This document shows positions 1-14,859 of a DNA stretch of 21,762 nt, piece by piece. Location of the stretch: positions 1 to 21,762 of IMG/VR virus record IMGVR_UViG_3300031659_000120. One strand, given 5' to 3'. The notes below the pieces were generated by a model. It had not been told where the DNA came from. It saw only the letters and a list, made by a program, of their open reading frames with translations, and did no database searches. Both the position numbers and the translations under genes were made by a program. The DNA comes from a virus. The first letter of the stretch is position 1. Every line of letters starts with the position of its first letter.

Positions 1-1384
1 CTTCTAACCATTTTTTGTAAACAGCTTCATCTTCTATATTTTCAGGAACTGGGTATTTAAGGTCTCTTGCTATATCAATGTAACGAGCTTTTTTTTCTTC
101 AGGAGTCATCCCAAAGTCTTCGTTTACAGTCTGAACTACTTTGTAAAACCCATCAACACCAGCACCGTAAAGACTTGCAAGAACATCACTAACACCAGGA
201 CCAACAAAAGTGTTAATTAAGCCTCCAACATATGTACTATCATCAGCTTCTTTCATGTCGATATAATTTCCGACAGTTGAGTCAACTACTGTTTTAAGTT
301 TTTTGTATTCGTTAAAACTGTTTCCTAACCCATTCTTTGTTTGTTGTAATCTTTTTCCAGCTGCTAAAGAATTTTGATATGCTAACTGCCATTCAGGTGT
401 TGCTTGTACTTCTGGGCTTTGTCCCATTAATGCATCCATTTCATACTCTTGTGTAGTCTGAGCTTCTAAGTAAACATTGTATCTTGTATTAAGCGCTCTG
501 GCTTTATTTTCAACTTCAGCTATGTCTGATTTAGTTCCTTCAAGACTAAAGTATTTTTTTCTATTTCTATCATATCCAGTAGTTAGTTCTGCCATTTTAT
601 TGTCAGTCCTTCTATTGGCTTTTAAAAATTCTCTTAATTCTGAAGCTGCTGCTTTTTCAGTACCAAAAAGATCTCCTGTTAAATCTCCTAATACTGAATC
701 TAAATTAACAGTAATGCTTTTACTGGGATCATCTTTAGATGTAACAGTCATTCCATCAAACCCATCAAACATACTACCACCTTGCTCAAAATCAAATCCG
801 TAATCTTCAAAATGATATTTCATTCTGTTAACCACTTCAGACTCTTCTCTGTCAACTAAATCAGCTGTAACATAAGCTAATGATTTATCAAACTGTGAGT
901 CTGTTGAATCGTAAGTAATTGTGTTAGCATTAATGTCTTTACCTTGCTCACGAGGATCGTAAGCAGGGTACTCGGTAACCATGTTAGGATCAATGCTGGA
1001 GTCGTATGCATCAAATTCTTCTTTTGTAACTTCTTTACCGTTAATTGAATAAGGAAAAACAGGTTTATCTTCCAACGAAGGATCAACTATGGTAGAAACC
1101 ACAGAAGTATCTACGACCTCTGGAGTTTCGGTAGTAGAATCCGTAATAACCTCCTCCACATTTGATGGAGAAGTTTCGATTGGATTTTTTTTTTCTAATG
1201 CAGTAAAATATTCAACATTAAACCTTTCCGCATCTAAATCTGTTAACTTTTCATCTCTTAAATAAGAATATAGCTCAGTATTTTTAGCAGTTCCTGCCGC
1301 ATACTCAACTTTAAATTGTTCAGCAGATAAATCTGTTAACCCTTCTTCCTTTAAATAATTGTATAACTCTGTAAACTTATCCAT
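1..1384 (-). CDS. N-terminal part of a large putative internal virion / ejected protein (runs off the left edge)
   Basis: An open frame of 461 codons begins at ATG 1384-1382 and is still open at base 1, so only the N-terminus is present. The ATG overlaps the stop codon of the upstream gene as TAATG, which suggests translational coupling and fixes the start. Residues 5-28 and 36-59 form a tandem repeat of period 31 (TELYxYLxxExLTDLxAExF), followed by an acidic, Thr/Ser/Val-rich linker (about 65-105) and then a long hydrophilic, probably helical region. There is a weakly hydrophobic Gly-rich patch near residues 395-425. No enzyme motif is visible in this part. Its place behind two putative cargo proteins suggests a large protein packaged in the capsid and ejected with the DNA, as in crAss-like and T7-like podoviruses; this is inference. 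The missing C-terminus could carry a peptidoglycan-cleaving or other domain. Confidence 0.7.
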   Translation of the reverse strand, partial: MDKFTELYNYLKEEGLTDLSAEQFKVEYAAGTAKNTELYSYLRDEKLTDLDAERFNVEYFTALEKKNPIETSPSNVEEVITDSTTETPEVVDTSVVSTIVDPSLEDKPVFPYSINGKEVTKEEFDAYDSSIDPNMVTEYPAYDPREQGKDINANTITYDSTDSQFDKSLAYVTADLVDREESEVVNRMKYHFEDYGFDFEQGGSMFDGFDGMTVTSKDDPSKSITVNLDSVLGDLTGDLFGTEKAAASELREFLKANRRTDNKMAELTTGYDRNRKKYFSLEGTKSDIAEVENKARALNTRYNVYLEAQTTQEYEMDALMGQSPEVQATPEWQLAYQNSLAAGKRLQQTKNGLGNSFNEYKKLKTVVDSTVGNYIDMKEADDSTYVGGLINTFVGPGVSDVLASLYGAGVDGFYKVVQTVNEDFGMTPEEKKARYIDIARDLKYPVPENIEDEAVYKKWLE

Positions 1385-3645
1385 TAATTAAATTTCTTAT
1401 TGGTTTTTCTTGTTCCTTTTCTATTTCTATTCTGACGAATTTCGTTTTCTTTTTGCGTAACTGTAACTGCTGCATCACGTAGCATTCCAGTTGCATCTAT
1501 CGTTGAAGTTCTACTACCCACGTCATCACTCATTTGAATTGGTGGTAACTCAACCTCGTTATTGTTTTTATCTCTATAGGTTATAATCACTTGATTATTA
1601 TTGTCATCCCATTTTAATTTAGCACCACTTTTTAATTCTTTAGGTAAGAAATTTGTAAAAACTTCAGAAAAAGCAGTTTGTACTTCTTTTTGAGTATCTG
1701 AATTCCCTAAATTAGGGCCTAATTTATCGTCCATATATACAGTTGGTGAAACCATAGTTGCAGTTGTTCCTGCACCCATTATCATATTTTGCTGAGAAGC
1801 TGATGACACTGCTGGATAAGGAGCTAATGAGGCATATTTACTTGCATCACCACCATTAAGAATTTCTCTTTCCATAGCTTTTAATTCATCCGCAGTTACG
1901 TTTTTACCTTGTGATTCAATTTCAGCTTTTAATTTTAAAGCATATGCTGCTGTTTCTTTTTCAAAAGCTTCTGCATTTAAATTAATTTCACTATTAGTTG
2001 GTTTCCCACCCTTACCAGTACCAGTAGTCAATTCTTTAAGTTCAGGAGGTTTACCTACTGCTTTTACAGCTCTTTCATTAGCAATAAAGCTTCTGTCTTC
2101 TTCATCTGTAGATCCCCTTGTAGTACTTCTAAATCCTCCACCTGGCTCTTTGTCGTACATATCAGCCGCATATTTAAATGAGTCATCATCTTGATCAGTG
2201 ACGTATCTCCATAGCTCTTGAGACATTACTCTTGCATTTTTAGGAACACCATTCTTATCAAATCTATTTATTGGCTCAACTCTACCATCTTGGTAAGTTA
2301 TAAGAATTTCATCACCATCTCTTATAATATTATCAATTCGTTTTGCTGGATCTGTTTGGTCTTTATTTAATGCAACAATACGATCATTAGCCTCTGCATC
2401 AAATTTACTTGCGTCATCTGAAACCAATGTATTAACACCATCCATAAACGCAATAAGCTTTCTATCTTGTTTTTTTCCAGCCAAAGTAGCAGCACTTGGA
2501 TCTTTTTTCTGTTGTGGTGTTGCTCCTTGAGTCATTTTTACAATGTGATCAACTTGAGATTCAACAGCTCTGTCTGCAATCTTACGAGCTGCTGATTGTT
2601 GAGCTGTATTCATTTCAGGAATCGGTTGACCTGAACTCATGTCAACTTTAATCATGAATTTTGTGTCTACATTTGGATGATCTTTTTTAAATTGACTCTC
2701 TGTCTGAGCAAAGTAATAACCATTACCAGTTGTCAATATCTCTGCCGCACTTAAATTTGATGCATCATTAACACCAACCATAGCATTTATTTGATCTTTT
2801 TTCCACATGTCGTAAGTAATGGTTTTCCCATTCTCATCTTTACCAAATTCTCCTAATTGCCTAAAATCCTCAATAGTCGTAATGTTACCACCACCACCAA
2901 GAGCAGTTAATCTTTCACGTTCAGAAGTTATAATCGAAGCAATATTAGCTGTTTGTGTTTTTGCTAAATCATTTACATCAACACCAGCATTTTTATACTT
3001 CATGAAATCCATCATAGTATTTGGATTCTGGTAATCTTGTTTTTGAGTTTCGTAATCTGGCATTACATCATATAGTCCAGTTTTTGCATTTTGCCCCATT
3101 GTCACTAACTGCATTTTACCGTTAGTAGGGTTGGTCCATAGTTTTTTGTTTTTTAAATTACCTAAAGCTTCTGTCTGTAAATTAGTAAAAGTCTCTAAAT
3201 TACCTGACGATATATTTGGATCTTCAAGTCTGGTTCGAGCTTCAACAGCCCAAGCATCCCAGCCTTTTACAGCTGTACTTAAACTTTTATACCCATTTTT
3301 TTGTTGTTGCATAAACAACATATTGTCTTTTGGGCTAATTAGACCACGTTTCATTAAATTGTTTTGTGTCATAACTGCCTCAACAGACATACCAGATCCA
3401 TTTATTAATAAAGAAGCGGCATCTTGAGTGCCTGTCTCTGGAACTTGACTAAGTTGTTCAATGGCATCTTGGGTAGATTTTTCAATAGCAGCTTTTTTGG
3501 CTTCTCTTTCATCTCGAATTGTTTCAAGCCCCTTAACTAATTGTCCTGATATTTCATTCCAATTAACTTGCGTACTATCTACACTTCTTTGTGCGTAAAC
3601 TGAATATTTATTAGCCCCTGAAGGTCTTGATTTATCTTCTGCCAT
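1384..3645 (-). CDS. Putative internal virion (cargo/ejection) protein, 753 aa
   Basis: This complete 753-residue frame starts nine bases after the 297-residue gene and ends in a TAATG overlap with the next gene. The protein is hydrophilic, rich in Asn, Gln, Lys and Asp, mostly predicted helical by eye, and has no signal peptide or membrane segment. The N-terminal 100 residues (SGANKYSVYAQRS, then a charged EREAKKAAIEK helix and QNNLMKRGLISP) have the look of a protein common in uncultured marine phages at this position. A Gly-rich stretch (LTALGGGGNITT) lies about one third in, and the C-terminus is strongly basic (NRNRKGTRKTNKKFN). No catalytic motif is visible. By position after the tail genes and next to a gp14-like protein I infer an internal virion protein delivered into the host; the exact role is unknown. 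It could alternatively be a tail-associated structural protein. Confidence 0.72.
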   Translation of the reverse strand: MAEDKSRPSGANKYSVYAQRSVDSTQVNWNEISGQLVKGLETIRDEREAKKAAIEKSTQDAIEQLSQVPETGTQDAASLLINGSGMSVEAVMTQNNLMKRGLISPKDNMLFMQQQKNGYKSLSTAVKGWDAWAVEARTRLEDPNISSGNLETFTNLQTEALGNLKNKKLWTNPTNGKMQLVTMGQNAKTGLYDVMPDYETQKQDYQNPNTMMDFMKYKNAGVDVNDLAKTQTANIASIITSERERLTALGGGGNITTIEDFRQLGEFGKDENGKTITYDMWKKDQINAMVGVNDASNLSAAEILTTGNGYYFAQTESQFKKDHPNVDTKFMIKVDMSSGQPIPEMNTAQQSAARKIADRAVESQVDHIVKMTQGATPQQKKDPSAATLAGKKQDRKLIAFMDGVNTLVSDDASKFDAEANDRIVALNKDQTDPAKRIDNIIRDGDEILITYQDGRVEPINRFDKNGVPKNARVMSQELWRYVTDQDDDSFKYAADMYDKEPGGGFRSTTRGSTDEEDRSFIANERAVKAVGKPPELKELTTGTGKGGKPTNSEINLNAEAFEKETAAYALKLKAEIESQGKNVTADELKAMEREILNGGDASKYASLAPYPAVSSASQQNMIMGAGTTATMVSPTVYMDDKLGPNLGNSDTQKEVQTAFSEVFTNFLPKELKSGAKLKWDDNNNQVIITYRDKNNNEVELPPIQMSDDVGSRTSTIDATGMLRDAAVTVTQKENEIRQNRNRKGTRKTNKKFN

Positions 3646-3654
3646 GGTATTTTT

Positions 3655-4548
3655 TTAAGGTGTATCGAATTGAGCATAAAATGCAGCATTATATGTTCCA
3701 GCTTTAGCTAAGTCTTTAAGTTGTTTTTTAGAATATCTTTTTGTAAGCCTATCCCTCATAAAATTAGTACCCATCGGAGTAGAAGTGGTAGGTGCAAATT
3801 TTGCCGCTTCTGTTGCATTATAGTCTGGATTTGCAATTTGATTTCCTTTTCCATCATCTATCGTTTGTTGACTAAACTTTGCATAAGCTGCTTTTCCTTC
3901 TACTGTTATACCATTTGGATTAACAATAGTGTCTTGAGTCAGCTTTGAGTCTAATTGATCTAAAACACTTTGAGCTGCCTTATCCTTACCACTTGCTGTA
4001 TACAACGGTACAGCTGAAGCAGCTGAACCAACAGCTGAACCAACAGAGGAAACACCTTGAATCATAGCTGCTGCTGATGCTTCTTGAGCATCTCTTGATA
4101 TCATTTGTTGATCCGTTGCCGCACCAACTTTCATATCTTTAATATCTTGGTTAATGTCTGACTTTTCTTGAGTTTGTAATTTTTCTAAATCATATAACTC
4201 TTTACCCATTGCAATTCGAGTGCCTTCATTTGATGCAGTTGCTCCTTGACCAACCCTTGCAACACCAGCCGCTAAATTACGAGAATCACCTTCTTGTAAA
4301 GCTTGTATACCTTGTTGTTGAACTTGTAAGTTCTGATCATACTCTCTACCGTAAGCATCTAAAGGAACATTAAGTTGACCAAAATATTGGATTTCGGCTT
4401 TTCTTTCAGCTTCTTCCATAAGTTTTTTACTTGCTGCTGACGCTTTTTCTCCAGCTTTTTTAGATTTTGCTGCTTGAGCAAAACTCATTCCTGCCGAAGT
4501 AGCACTTATTGCTACTGCTGTTGCTGCTATTGCTGTTGCTAATGCCAT
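3655..4548 (-). CDS. Putative inner-core / ejection protein, gp14-like, 297 aa
   Basis: The protein opens with a hydrophobic Ala-rich segment (residues about 2-27, ATAIAATAVAISATSAGMSF) followed directly by a basic, Ala/Lys-rich helix (KSKKAGEKASAASKK). A long Gln/Ala-rich helical region covers about 50-155. A second Ala/Gly/Ser-rich apolar segment (about 160-183, MIQGVSSVGSAVGSAASAV) precedes a hydrophilic C-terminus. One or two small-residue apolar helices joined to a long helical body are typical of podovirus ejection proteins such as T7 gp14, which form a channel across the host envelope; that comparison is architectural only. ATG 4548 lies one base after the GNAT stop codon, so start and coupling are well defined. 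Together with the next two genes it seems to form an ejection-protein cassette. Confidence 0.7.
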   Translation of the reverse strand: MALATAIAATAVAISATSAGMSFAQAAKSKKAGEKASAASKKLMEEAERKAEIQYFGQLNVPLDAYGREYDQNLQVQQQGIQALQEGDSRNLAAGVARVGQGATASNEGTRIAMGKELYDLEKLQTQEKSDINQDIKDMKVGAATDQQMISRDAQEASAAAMIQGVSSVGSAVGSAASAVPLYTASGKDKAAQSVLDQLDSKLTQDTIVNPNGITVEGKAAYAKFSQQTIDDGKGNQIANPDYNATEAAKFAPTTSTPMGTNFMRDRLTKRYSKKQLKDLAKAGTYNAAFYAQFDTP

Positions 4549-4549
4549 T

Positions 4550-4957
4550 TTATAATCTTTTTATTATTTCATAAGATGCTTTTGCATCTACGTGGTATCC
4601 CAGTTTTTTATGAGTATCCATTAAATGTTTGTTTCTTCCTATACTAAATATATATTTTTTATCAGCAGCTTTTACATACTCTTCACAAGTTAAAATTAAA
4701 AACTCAATAGCATCCTGTCTGTCATCATCTTTATAAGAAGGATTAGAAACAATCCATTCTAATAAAACCCCTTCAGAATTAGTAAAATACATAAAACCTG
4801 CTACAATAGGTACGTTGTTTTTTTCTACTATAAAACCACCTGTACCATTATCTGGTAAAAAATCTTTAGGTGGTGGTTTCCAACCTGGCCATTTATCCCA
4901 CCAAGACGTAAGTGTATCCCAATCCTTGTTTTCAAGTCTTCGTATCTCTAATTCCAT
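4550..4957 (-). CDS. GNAT-fold protein (N-acetyltransferase-like), 135 aa
   Basis: This compact 135-residue protein fits the GNAT fold. An N-terminal strand and helix (MELEIRRLENKDWDTLTSWW) come first, then a central beta-sheet (GGFIVEKNNVPIVAGFMYF, then GVLLEWIVSNPSY) and a C-terminal motif-B-like segment (GRNKHLMDTHKKLGYHV) like the N-x-A-x-x-LYEKLGF end of GNAT enzymes. The acyl-CoA pyrophosphate-binding loop, normally R/Q-x-x-G-x-G/A after the motif A strand, is replaced by KDDDRQDAI with no glycine. The protein may therefore bind CoA weakly or be a non-catalytic structural derivative. Similar small GNAT-like genes sit among virion genes in uncultured marine phages (from memory). The gene has its own -7 promoter element 17 bases before the ATG and starts the cargo-protein unit. 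Substrate unknown. Confidence 0.72.
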   Translation of the reverse strand: MELEIRRLENKDWDTLTSWWDKWPGWKPPPKDFLPDNGTGGFIVEKNNVPIVAGFMYFTNSEGVLLEWIVSNPSYKDDDRQDAIEFLILTCEEYVKAADKKYIFSIGRNKHLMDTHKKLGYHVDAKASYEIIKRL

Positions 4958-4974
4958 TTAATATGATTTAGAAA

Positions 4975-4982
4975 CAAAGATA
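4975..4982 (-). promoter_or_regulatory. Bacteroidota-type -7 promoter element before the GNAT gene
   Basis: On the minus strand the gap holds TATCTTTG followed by T, matching the Bacteroidota -7 consensus TAnnTTTG, 17 bases before ATG 4957. No clear -33 TTG/TTTG was seen about 19 bases further upstream. This would drive the GNAT and ejection-protein genes separately from the tail genes. Confidence 0.6.
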
Positions 4983-4990
4983 GTAAAATT

Positions 4991-5809
4991 CTATGGATAA
5001 CTTTTCATCACACTACTGCCTACCGCAAATAGTTCAACCGCAGATGTGGAGTTGTTTTCTAACTTAAATTCTAAGTAATATCCTCTTGCTCCATGAGACT
5101 CTGCAACCGCATTTTTTATAAACATAATAAACTGTCCAACTGTTGGAACTGTGCTTCCTCCTGAAGAAGCATCTACAGTAATACTTGTACTTGATTTTGC
5201 AGTAATTTCTCCTATTAGAAAAGGCTCTGTAGTTGCAACACCAGCCGCTAAAGTAGCTCCGTATGCTGCATCTCCAATATTTAATATTGATCCAATAGGG
5301 GTTGCGAAAACAATTATAGTTCCGTTGGATGGTCCACTTACTCCTGTACATGCACCAATACCATTAGCCGAACGCATTTGCCAATTTACAGTGCCAGCAT
5401 TTGTTCTAAGGTAACTAAAAAATTCGCCCTCTTTTTCTACAAAATAAGTTTCCAACATTGATCCTGGAGTTCCATCCGTTAAATCAGAAAGCAATCTTGT
5501 ACACTCCCATCTTGCTTCATTACTATCAACATTTGTTGTAGTTGCTTCGTATGATAATGTTTTAAATAATTTAATACTTAAAGTAGGTTCTGGATTAAAT
5601 ACACTCGTTATAGTAGAACTATAATTTATTCCATAATATTGGTTACGAATATTTCCTGTATTATGCCTCCATATGTTACCACCTTTAAAACTATAAAAAA
5701 AACTATTCATACCTATCATAAAGTCAGGAATAAAAGAATAAAACGAAGGCCATCCTTTAGATGATTCGCTATATGATAATGAGTATTCTGACGTACATTT
5801 TGTTGCCAT
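4991..5809 (-). CDS. Tail-surface structural protein with WPSFYSF-type motif, 272 aa
   Basis: The N-terminus carries a distinctive phage structural motif: SKGWPSFYSFIPDFMIGMN (residues 17-35), then FFYSFKGGNIWRHNTGNIRN and YYG to about residue 60. As I recall, this block occurs in virion proteins of crAss-like and marine phages and at the end of some stabilization proteins, so it may be a detached C-terminal domain of the muzzle. Residues about 160-233 form a beta-rich, Gly/Ser/Thr-rich module (GEITAKSSTSITVDASSGG, GQFIMFIKN), and the last 40 residues (RGYYLEFKLENNSTSAVELF) close with a beta segment ending in SYP. There is no enzyme motif. The start ATG 5809 follows an A-rich AAAT repeat, with no Shine-Dalgarno sequence. 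The likely role is an outer tail or tail-needle/fiber-attachment protein; this is inference. Confidence 0.68.
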   Translation of the reverse strand: MATKCTSEYSLSYSESSKGWPSFYSFIPDFMIGMNSFFYSFKGGNIWRHNTGNIRNQYYGINYSSTITSVFNPEPTLSIKLFKTLSYEATTTNVDSNEARWECTRLLSDLTDGTPGSMLETYFVEKEGEFFSYLRTNAGTVNWQMRSANGIGACTGVSGPSNGTIIVFATPIGSILNIGDAAYGATLAAGVATTEPFLIGEITAKSSTSITVDASSGGSTVPTVGQFIMFIKNAVAESHGARGYYLEFKLENNSTSAVELFAVGSSVMKSYP

Positions 5810-5831
5810 ATTTTTATTTATTTATTTATTA
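5810..5831 (-). repeat. AAAT tetranucleotide run before ATG 5809
   Basis: Between the TAA of the 340-residue gene and ATG 5809 the minus strand reads about four consecutive TAAA units ending in AAATATG. It gives stop codons in all three frames and supplies the A-rich upstream context that Bacteroidota use in place of a Shine-Dalgarno sequence. Confidence 0.6.
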
Positions 5832-6851
5832 TATACATGGTCCAGAAGAAACAACAACTCCGTTTCGTACTCCAAGTGCGGTTGTTCCTCCTATTATAAA
5901 ATATTTAATAGTTGCAGCGTCACCTAAGTATGTTGATCCATTAGCATCACTAAAAACAAAGTTACCTACTTCTGGAACTGTATTAGTTCTAATGCTATAA
6001 GGAACAGAAGTTCCTGTTGCATTTTGAATAAAATAATAAGTTTGTGTAGCGGCAGCACAAGTAGCTGCATTTTCTGGAGTTGAAGCTTGAAAACTCGGTA
6101 ATGCTATAGGACAATCTACCTCCCAATTAAATGCAGTTCCACATAATGGTGCAAATATTTTTAAGTTTAAGGTCGTTGGTGTTACAGATGTTTTTGGAAC
6201 AACCATAGTAAATACAGGAGAATTAGGATCTGAAGCATAACCTATAGCATTAGAAGCAACTGTTACATTTTGAGTTGTTCCTTGATCCACGTATGTACCA
6301 GACACTAAAGAAAAATCAGTTGGAGAAGTACCTTGAGTTGGACAAGATCCAGCACTATCGTAAGGACTGTTACTTAATAAGTTTGCATTTCGATTACCTA
6401 CATATGTAGGAAGTGATGTCCCCTGGTTTCCAATTCCAGCATAGTCAACTTGAGTATTAGATCCATCAACTAACGATACTCCATTGTGGTTATCTGCTGC
6501 TGTTAATCTATTATATCCAACACCATTTAATGTAGCAATAATACCATCTGGGACTGAGATACCCATAAAACAGCGTATTACTACCGCTCCTAAATCATTT
6601 GCTAAATCAATATTAGCATCAAAAACTCCATTTTGATTACCGATAGATGCAGAAAGTCCTGATCCACATGGAACTAAACATGATCCACATGGTTGAGCGT
6701 TAAGCAATATACCATTTAGTTGTTGTCTTATAATTCCTCCTTGTGAATAATATCCATCTGAAGCAAGGGTAGTTAATCCTGAATCTGTATACAAAGCCGA
6801 AGCTTGTGAAAAATTTAATCCATCAAAACAATATGTTCCTAATGCTGCCAT
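5829..6851 (-). CDS. Tail-tip / putative receptor-binding surface protein with Cys-ended modules, 340 aa
   Basis: This is a Gly/Ser/Thr/Asn-rich, beta-rich protein without enzyme motifs. Residues 7-62 hold a module reading FSQASALYTDSGLTTLASD, GYYSQGGIIRQQ, NGILL and then a cysteine cluster CGSCLVPC. Residues 264-340 hold a related module: TYYFIQNATG, VGNFVFSDANGSTYLGD, NGVVVSSGPC. A similar module ends the preceding 1601-residue protein. Such TYY...DGYY...NGVV...C units are, from memory, common in tail proteins of phages of Bacteroidota. The middle (about 70-260) is low-complexity beta sequence with several scattered cysteines. The small-residue composition and place between the muzzle and another surface protein suggest a fiber, tip or receptor-binding role, which is inference. 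The start is supported by an AAAT run just upstream. Confidence 0.68.
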   Translation of the reverse strand: MAALGTYCFDGLNFSQASALYTDSGLTTLASDGYYSQGGIIRQQLNGILLNAQPCGSCLVPCGSGLSASIGNQNGVFDANIDLANDLGAVVIRCFMGISVPDGIIATLNGVGYNRLTAADNHNGVSLVDGSNTQVDYAGIGNQGTSLPTYVGNRNANLLSNSPYDSAGSCPTQGTSPTDFSLVSGTYVDQGTTQNVTVASNAIGYASDPNSPVFTMVVPKTSVTPTTLNLKIFAPLCGTAFNWEVDCPIALPSFQASTPENAATCAAATQTYYFIQNATGTSVPYSIRTNTVPEVGNFVFSDANGSTYLGDAATIKYFIIGGTTALGVRNGVVVSSGPCI

Positions 6852-13572: not shown

Positions 13573-13587
13573 AATTAATTCTTTTTA

Positions 13588-13595
13588 CAAAGATA
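13588..13595 (-). promoter_or_regulatory. Bacteroidota-type -7 promoter element before the ring-protein gene
   Basis: The minus strand reads TATCTTTG then TA, matching TAnnTTTG, 15 bases before ATG 13572 and only two bases (GC) after the T-run of the upstream terminator. No -33 TTG is seen at the usual distance, which falls inside the hairpin. It would start the connector/muzzle/tail unit. Confidence 0.65.
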
Positions 13596-13597
13596 GC

Positions 13598-13631
13598 AAA
13601 AAAAAAGAGGCTACTTTTTTTTGTAGCCTCT
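13598..13631 (-). terminator. Intrinsic terminator after the 92-residue gene
   Basis: A perfect 9-bp stem, AGAGGCTAC with GTAGCCTCT (13606-13614 with 13623-13631), closes an 8-base loop. On the minus strand a run of T follows immediately (nine T, the first inside the stem). It lies 24 bases after the stop codon of the 92-residue gene. Confidence 0.85.
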
Positions 13632-13654
13632 CTTTGATTTTATAATTAATGCTG

Positions 13655-14782: not shown

Positions 14783-14807
14783 TATAATATGATTTAATTT
14801 GATTTAT

Positions 14808-14843
14808 AAAAAATAATTACCCTCGTCATTATAACGAGGGTAA
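14808..14843 (-). terminator. Intrinsic terminator after the major capsid gene
   Basis: A perfect 10-bp stem, TTACCCTCGT with ACGAGGGTAA (14817-14826 with 14834-14843), closes a 7-base loop. On the minus strand it is followed by TTATTTTTTAT, an imperfect but T-rich tail. It lies 16 bases after the capsid stop codon. The interrupted T-run suggests partial termination. Confidence 0.78.
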
Positions 14844-14859
14844 GTATTACTACTATTTA

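Follow-up and report, generated by a model that had tools for sequence, protein, structure and literature searches.

Bacteriophage T7 carries, between the gene for its tail protein gp12 and the genes for gp14, gp15 and gp16, a gene with a promoter of its own that encodes gp13 (PF11090, Phage_T7_Gp13; phrog_308, internal virion protein). In the accessible part of one article, gp13 is described as a protein of unknown function that is yet required, and as needed for other proteins to enter the virion (PMC5592923); the accessible part of another states that it is necessary for infection while its location is undetermined (PMC8811829). In the SIO1 roseophage and in cobaviruses, a gene for a GNAT protein (pc40; phrog_1249, acetyltransferase) adjoins internal virion protein genes, and available text of PMC6775973 already proposed that it corresponds to T7 gp13. 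In pelagiphage Skadi an acetyltransferase gene lies close to those for the internal core, and the available portion of PMC10504331 sees it as a possible means of metabolic hijack or host takeover. Our literature searches found no title on a glycine-free GNAT loop or on phrog_17252, the family described here.

We analyzed a virus record of 21,762 bases (hereafter the window), which among named phages is closest to those infecting Flavobacterium, Cellulophaga, Tenacibaculum and Maribacter, and which encodes a member of a GNAT-fold family made by viruses of marine Flavobacteria.

A GNAT gene at the head of the ejection genes

The large genes of the window lie on its minus strand in the order terminase-like, portal, scaffold-like, capsid, tail genes, muzzle C-terminal domain protein, GNAT and three more, the names terminase, scaffold and EJ3 being given by gene position. 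The features around the GNAT gene are the following.

4991..5809, minus strand: protein with a crassvirus muzzle C-terminal domain, encoded just before GNAT (PF25729, E 9.3e-10, above the cut-off)
4975..4982, minus strand: TATCTTTG, promoter-like -7 box of the TAnnTTTG type, 25 nt before the GNAT start codon, based on conservation and enrichment
4550..4957, minus strand: GNAT-fold protein of phrog_17252, an ATG open reading frame of 135 aa (phrog_17252 E 5.7e-32; AlphaFold pLDDT 94.8; RimI Z 15.8)
4709..4735, minus strand: site of the CoA-pyrophosphate loop, encoding residues 75-83 (Y KDDDRQD A), which lack glycine and include R80, almost constant among family members
4595..4633, minus strand: motif B, codons of residues 109-121 (NKHLMDTHKKLGY), with H116 at the place of RimI Tyr115
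3655..4548, minus strand: ejection protein 1 (EJ1), 297 aa, 1 nt from the GNAT gene, at the place of T7 gp14, matching phi40:1 gp099
1384..3645, minus strand: ejection protein 2 (EJ2), 753 aa, at the place of T7 gp15, matching phi40:1 gp100
2..1384, minus strand: putative ejection protein 3 (EJ3), truncated where the window ends, at the place of T7 gp16 by synteny only (position and orientation)

The open reading frame at 4550-4957 is a real gene: relatives are found in 196 loci, its synteny is kept, and its dN/dS of 0.12-0.39 against 11 close relatives corresponds to purifying selection. Its match to the profile of phrog_17252, a family with no function assigned, covers residues 4-133 and thus the whole chain. 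As an initial annotation of this DNA had described, the gene opens a unit that continues on the same strand with three large genes (3655-4548, 1384-3645 and 2-1384). That annotation had also called their products putative injected proteins. The first two are homologous to gp099 (EJ1 profile, E 2.5e-30) and gp100 (EJ2 profile, E 4e-15) of Cellulophaga phage phi40:1, both annotated as structural from MS/MS. The N terminus of the EJ1 of the window is rich in small residues.

Two further observations concern the neighboring genes. In the EJ3 slot, large open reading frames of two relatives bear the doubtful names "reticulocyte binding/rhoptry protein" (L018, 11293-16408) and "tRNA methyltransferase" (L273, 9491-12687). 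On the other side of the GNAT gene, the muzzle C-terminal domain is encoded in the window by a separate gene (4991-5809), and a variable gene of 340 aa (5829-6851) lies between this one and a hub gene of 1601 aa; a single open reading frame matches hub plus muzzle in several relatives (L078, L084 and L117). The muzzle may be split in the window and include a diversifying part that binds receptors.

The predicted fold is that of GNAT proteins

The AlphaFold model of the protein (pTM 0.89, built with 53 sequences) predicts with high confidence a GNAT fold that covers the whole chain, as the initial annotation had suggested from the pattern of the sequence. Foldseek gave YqjY of Bacillus subtilis (1mk4), a probable acetyltransferase, as the best match (E 1.2e-7), while VIA-align gave RimI, the ribosomal protein S18 N-alpha-acetyltransferase, with many rows tied at the top (5isv: Z 15.8, rmsd 2.3, 129 aligned residues; 2cnm: Z 15.6). 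Z reached at least 8 for 934 of the 1000 pre-ranked chains, with GNATs on top. At the profile level, no Pfam family matched our protein with an E of 1 or below, Acetyltransf_1 matched 15 of the 53 family members scanned weakly (best E 0.0017), and a profile of 53 members matched YqjY weakly (E 0.0026), which was again the best match; a profile alignment with RimI runs over RimI residues 25-124. In the profile alignment with YqjY, the loop of this cellular protein is also atypical (FRKMQIGKQL), but one loop glycine is kept. Motif B is present as it had been quoted (KHLMDTHKKLGYHV): residues 109-121 follow the pattern N...L...G-Y/F/W, with L112 in 149/149 and G120 in 131/149 distinct relatives.

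The CoA-binding loop is missing from the whole family

From the 196 loci with a tblastn hit, some of which are the same contig seen twice, we kept 149 distinct proteins no shorter than 115 aa, among them that of the window, leaving out identical sequences and the shorter pieces of two loci. The R/Q-x-x-G-x-G/A motif by which GNAT enzymes are recognized occurs in the loop region of none of these 149 proteins, and neither does GxG; a glycine is found somewhere in residues 75-83 in only 11 of them. Five more proteins of the family (phi40:1, Calle, Panino, L277 and L278) likewise lack the loop, as do the only two relatives found in bacterial genomes. The glycine-free KDDDRQDAI that the initial annotation had reported can be read directly in the window, and the search for homologues with an intact RxxGxG loop, which it had proposed as a check on its own claim, returned none among the 149. 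Its word "eroded" is nevertheless misleading, because a loop without glycine is what the family as a whole conserves and the dN/dS values indicate a state that is kept rather than decay.

In the alignment, the loop of the window protein (YKDDDRQDAIEFLI) is one residue shorter than that of RimI (YQRQGLGRALLEHLI), which has QRQGLG. R80 falls between the two RimI glycines if counted from the strand and on the second glycine if counted from the helix, which begins at residue 80 in the predicted model. This residue is Arg in 148/149 relatives and Lys in the remaining one, and two other polar residues are highly constant too (E67 in 144/149, E130 in 148/149). The two RimI residues that we take to be catalytic, Glu103 and Tyr115, are replaced in the window by Phe104 and His116; among the 149 relatives, the first position is Phe or Tyr in 148 and the second is His in 96, Tyr in 29, Phe in 21 and Leu in 3. 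We infer that the protein most likely does not use acetyl-CoA, while the conserved E67, R80 and E130 could form an active site of a novel type, judging from their conservation.

Synteny with ejection genes is frequent and loose in some phages

The next same-strand gene starts at most 30 nt from the GNAT gene in 174 of the 188 loci in which this could be tested (8 could not), a count whose items are not independent, since near relatives and repeats are included. The 14 exceptions are eight Pachyviridae-like loci, phi19:3 (counted twice), L118 and three loci with distances of 31-78 nt. Tight coupling of GNAT to EJ1 is therefore not required, as 587-1526 nt separate the two in the eight Pachyviridae-like loci (phi13:2 counted twice) and as phi19:3 has its GNAT gene and its structural genes on opposite strands. 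In the latter phage, the inverted gene is gp122 (L020, 9464-9835), and its homology reaches back beyond the annotated start into a stretch in which we found no ATG. On the other side, the muzzle-domain gene adjoins the GNAT gene in most loci tested.

Position 2 of the protein encoded directly downstream of GNAT is A, G, P, S or T in 173/174 cases, and A, G, S, T, V, I or L make up 60% or more of its first 30 residues in 158/174. In 102/112 EJ2 proteins, position 2 is likewise small (A, G, S, P or T), so that the pattern is not specific to EJ1.

A tRNA-Cys gene lies near the GNAT gene of phi13:2 (L019, 10539-10611) and of phi19:3 (L020, 8580-8652), and likewise in their copies L150 and L194. 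The case of phi13:2 had suggested a tRNA-dependent transferase; we rejected this idea, tRNA-Cys being present in only 4 of 31 sources, which are these two phages, each counted twice.

A promoter-like box precedes the GNAT gene

The 33-bp gap before the GNAT gene holds TATCTTTG, a box of the form TAnnTTTG, which we take to be the -7 box of Bacteroidetes promoters. It is kept in all 23 close loci tested as well as in the window (4975-4982), in line with the promoter that the initial annotation had assigned to this gene. Within 60 nt before the GNAT start, TATCTTTG is found in 55/195 loci, compared with 8/832 other open reading frame starts of the same loci, and 92 copies lie on the plus strand of 2.18 Mb. 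The looser TAnnTTTG precedes GNAT in 75/195 loci, compared with 165/3920 random 60-nt stretches and with 43/488, 3/159 and 16/185 at other gene starts. When only distinct 45-nt upstream stretches are considered, 48 of 140 contain it, the TA being in some of them the stop codon of the preceding gene. Most loci of the group L030-L080 are without the box.

In many divergent loci (L158-L224), TAnnTTTG stands only 12-15 nt before the GNAT start codon, so that a transcript starting there would be leaderless or nearly so. Elsewhere in the window, a hairpin with a T run (GAGGCTAC...GTAGCCTC) is followed by the only other coding-strand TATCTTTG (13588-13595); from hairpin and box, the region 13573-13654 may be read as a terminator and then a promoter before the tail genes. 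A second strong intergenic hairpin at 14783-14859 (TTACCCTCGTTATAATGACGAGGGTAA) is probably a terminator.

Virion annotation of a homologue in a Cellulophaga phage

Protein gp098 of phi40:1, encoded between a muzzle-domain gene and gp099, is recorded as a "structural protein, annotation based on experimental MS/MS proteomics analysis", the MS/MS basis being given in the annotation note of its record; the same note stands on gp097 and gp099-gp101. This protein belongs to the family according to the family profile (E 3.1e-16 when six proteins were searched) and to phrog_17252 (E 3.5e-10), and a collection-wide tblastn search links it to the elemo phages (E 9e-7). The structural note on the phi38:1 homologue rests on similarity, and the homologues are labelled only "hypothetical" in the records of phi13:2 and of an elemo phage (elemoE). 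Neither gp98 nor gp098 occurs in the accessible portion of the phi38:1 infection proteomics paper (PMC13288928).

Slot and fold are shared with T7 gp13

The order in T7, namely the phi13 promoter followed by gene 13 (138 aa), gene 14 (196 aa), gene 15 (747 aa) and gene 16, compares with that of the window, where the box is followed by genes for 135, 297 and 753 aa and by the cut gene. The window protein thus has the slot of gp13, in front of gp14-gp15-gp16-like genes and with its own promoter-like box. The models of the two proteins also share the GNAT fold: that of T7 gp13 (pLDDT 93.9, 19 sequences) matches GNAT 4u5y with Z 12.2 and rmsd 2.5 over 127 aligned residues, and its BFVD neighbors include internal virion protein A entries together with putative acetyltransferases.

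The two families differ in sequence. T7 gp13 belongs to phrog_308, whereas the window protein matches phrog_17252 only, with neither PF11090 nor any other Pfam family at E up to 1. We looked with hhalign for sequence homology to T7 gp13, gp14 or gp15 and found none: the comparison of the window family with the gp13 profile was not significant, whether over most of the length (E 0.094) or over residues 3-54 (E 0.099), nor was that of the EJ1 profile with T7 gp14 (E 0.13).

That the loop is absent throughout the gp13 slot holds only partly, for the T7 loop is RLSGKA, formally R-x-x-G-x-A. Nine of 60 distinct gp13 sequences are of this type and the rest differ; the R/Q-x-x-G-x-G/A string occurs anywhere in the chain in 10 of the 60. 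It is not found in the loop of P-SSP7, HTVC019P and ICP3 (phrog_308), of HTVC010P (weak match to phrog_308, with QFDGDA outside the loop) or of SIO1. The SIO1/cobavirus protein, whose loop is RGKPAS, differs from the window protein in that it passes the Pfam Acetyltransf_1 cut-off (27.4 vs 20.7 bits) and belongs to another PHROG; the protein encoded after it in SIO1 has a start rich in small residues, as EJ1 does.

Discussion

An acetyltransferase fold without its cofactor loop, encoded in a slot like that of T7 gp13, makes a role in assembly likelier than an enzymatic one. We therefore lean toward a GNAT-fold pseudoenzyme that would work like T7 gp13 in the assembly of the ejection proteins, which we hold to be somewhat probable. 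The protein would be produced from a promoter of its own, along with the ejection proteins whose genes follow, would bind at least one of these, EJ1 being the simplest choice, by way of the former acceptor groove, and would help to place them in the particle, where it would probably stay at low copy. Here, the non-use of acetyl-CoA, the binding to EJ1 and the assembly role are all inferred.

The initial annotation had hesitated between a non-enzymatic chaperone or lock and an unusual acyltransferase modifying its cargo before packaging. The first option fits better, given the loop absent in 149/149 relatives, the changed RimI positions, the synteny with the ejection cassette, the homologue annotated from MS/MS and the slot and fold of T7 gp13. 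We consider it unlikely that the protein is an active enzyme which, with a non-canonical loop or another donor, transfers acyl or aminoacyl groups to an ejection protein, at its N terminus or its lysines, ahead of packaging. This reading would account for the best solved matches being among N-terminal acetyltransferases (RimI and Ard1, many rows tied), for the small second residue of EJ1, which suits Met removal, and for the annotation of relative L018 as an "N-terminal acetyltransferase complex subunit", and the invariant R80 and E130 could serve a different chemistry; it has to contend with the lost loop and with the substitutions at both RimI positions. N-terminal acetylation of EJ1 as a specific function was rejected on account of the small second residue that EJ2 shares, and we retain it only as part of this alternative.

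That the protein is instead a minor structural component of tail or muzzle, and no helper of the ejection proteins, seems less likely again: the MS/MS-based annotation of phi40:1 gp098 and the adjoining gene with a muzzle C-terminal domain would suit it, but the promoter-like box parts GNAT from the muzzle gene and groups it with the ejection genes, and the word "acetyltransferase" does not occur in the crassvirus structure paper (PMC10172136). It is improbable, in our view, that the protein acts in the infected cell as an acetyltransferase serving host takeover, a role suggested for other enzymes of this kind from phages (Rac, Qst). The Skadi gene is read in this way in the available part of PMC10504331, which cites Pseudomonas phage acetyltransferase work; against this stand the place of the GNAT gene in a structural unit with ejection genes, the missing cofactor loop and the homologue annotated as structural.

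Since the defining feature of each class was looked for and is absent, the window protein is a member of phrog_17252 and is to be filed neither as an acetyltransferase nor as a PF11090 member. Going further than a gp13-like pseudoenzyme in flavophages, one may speculate, tentatively and with more doubt than belief, that the gp13-like slot of unrelated short-tailed phages (the T7 group, cyanophages, pelagiphages, cobaviruses and flavophages) is filled by pseudo-acetyltransferase chaperones of GNAT fold that would need no acetyl-CoA, would hold the gp14-like protein by its conserved N terminus, within what was once the substrate groove, and would load it into the particle. The findings call for caution in labelling such genes as metabolic or host-takeover acetyltransferases. 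They also bring forward a large environmental family that combines the slot and fold of gp13 with a strictly glycine-free loop and an MS/MS-annotated homologue, and phrog_17252 makes it testable whether gp13 may be a disused acetyltransferase turned into an assembly chaperone.
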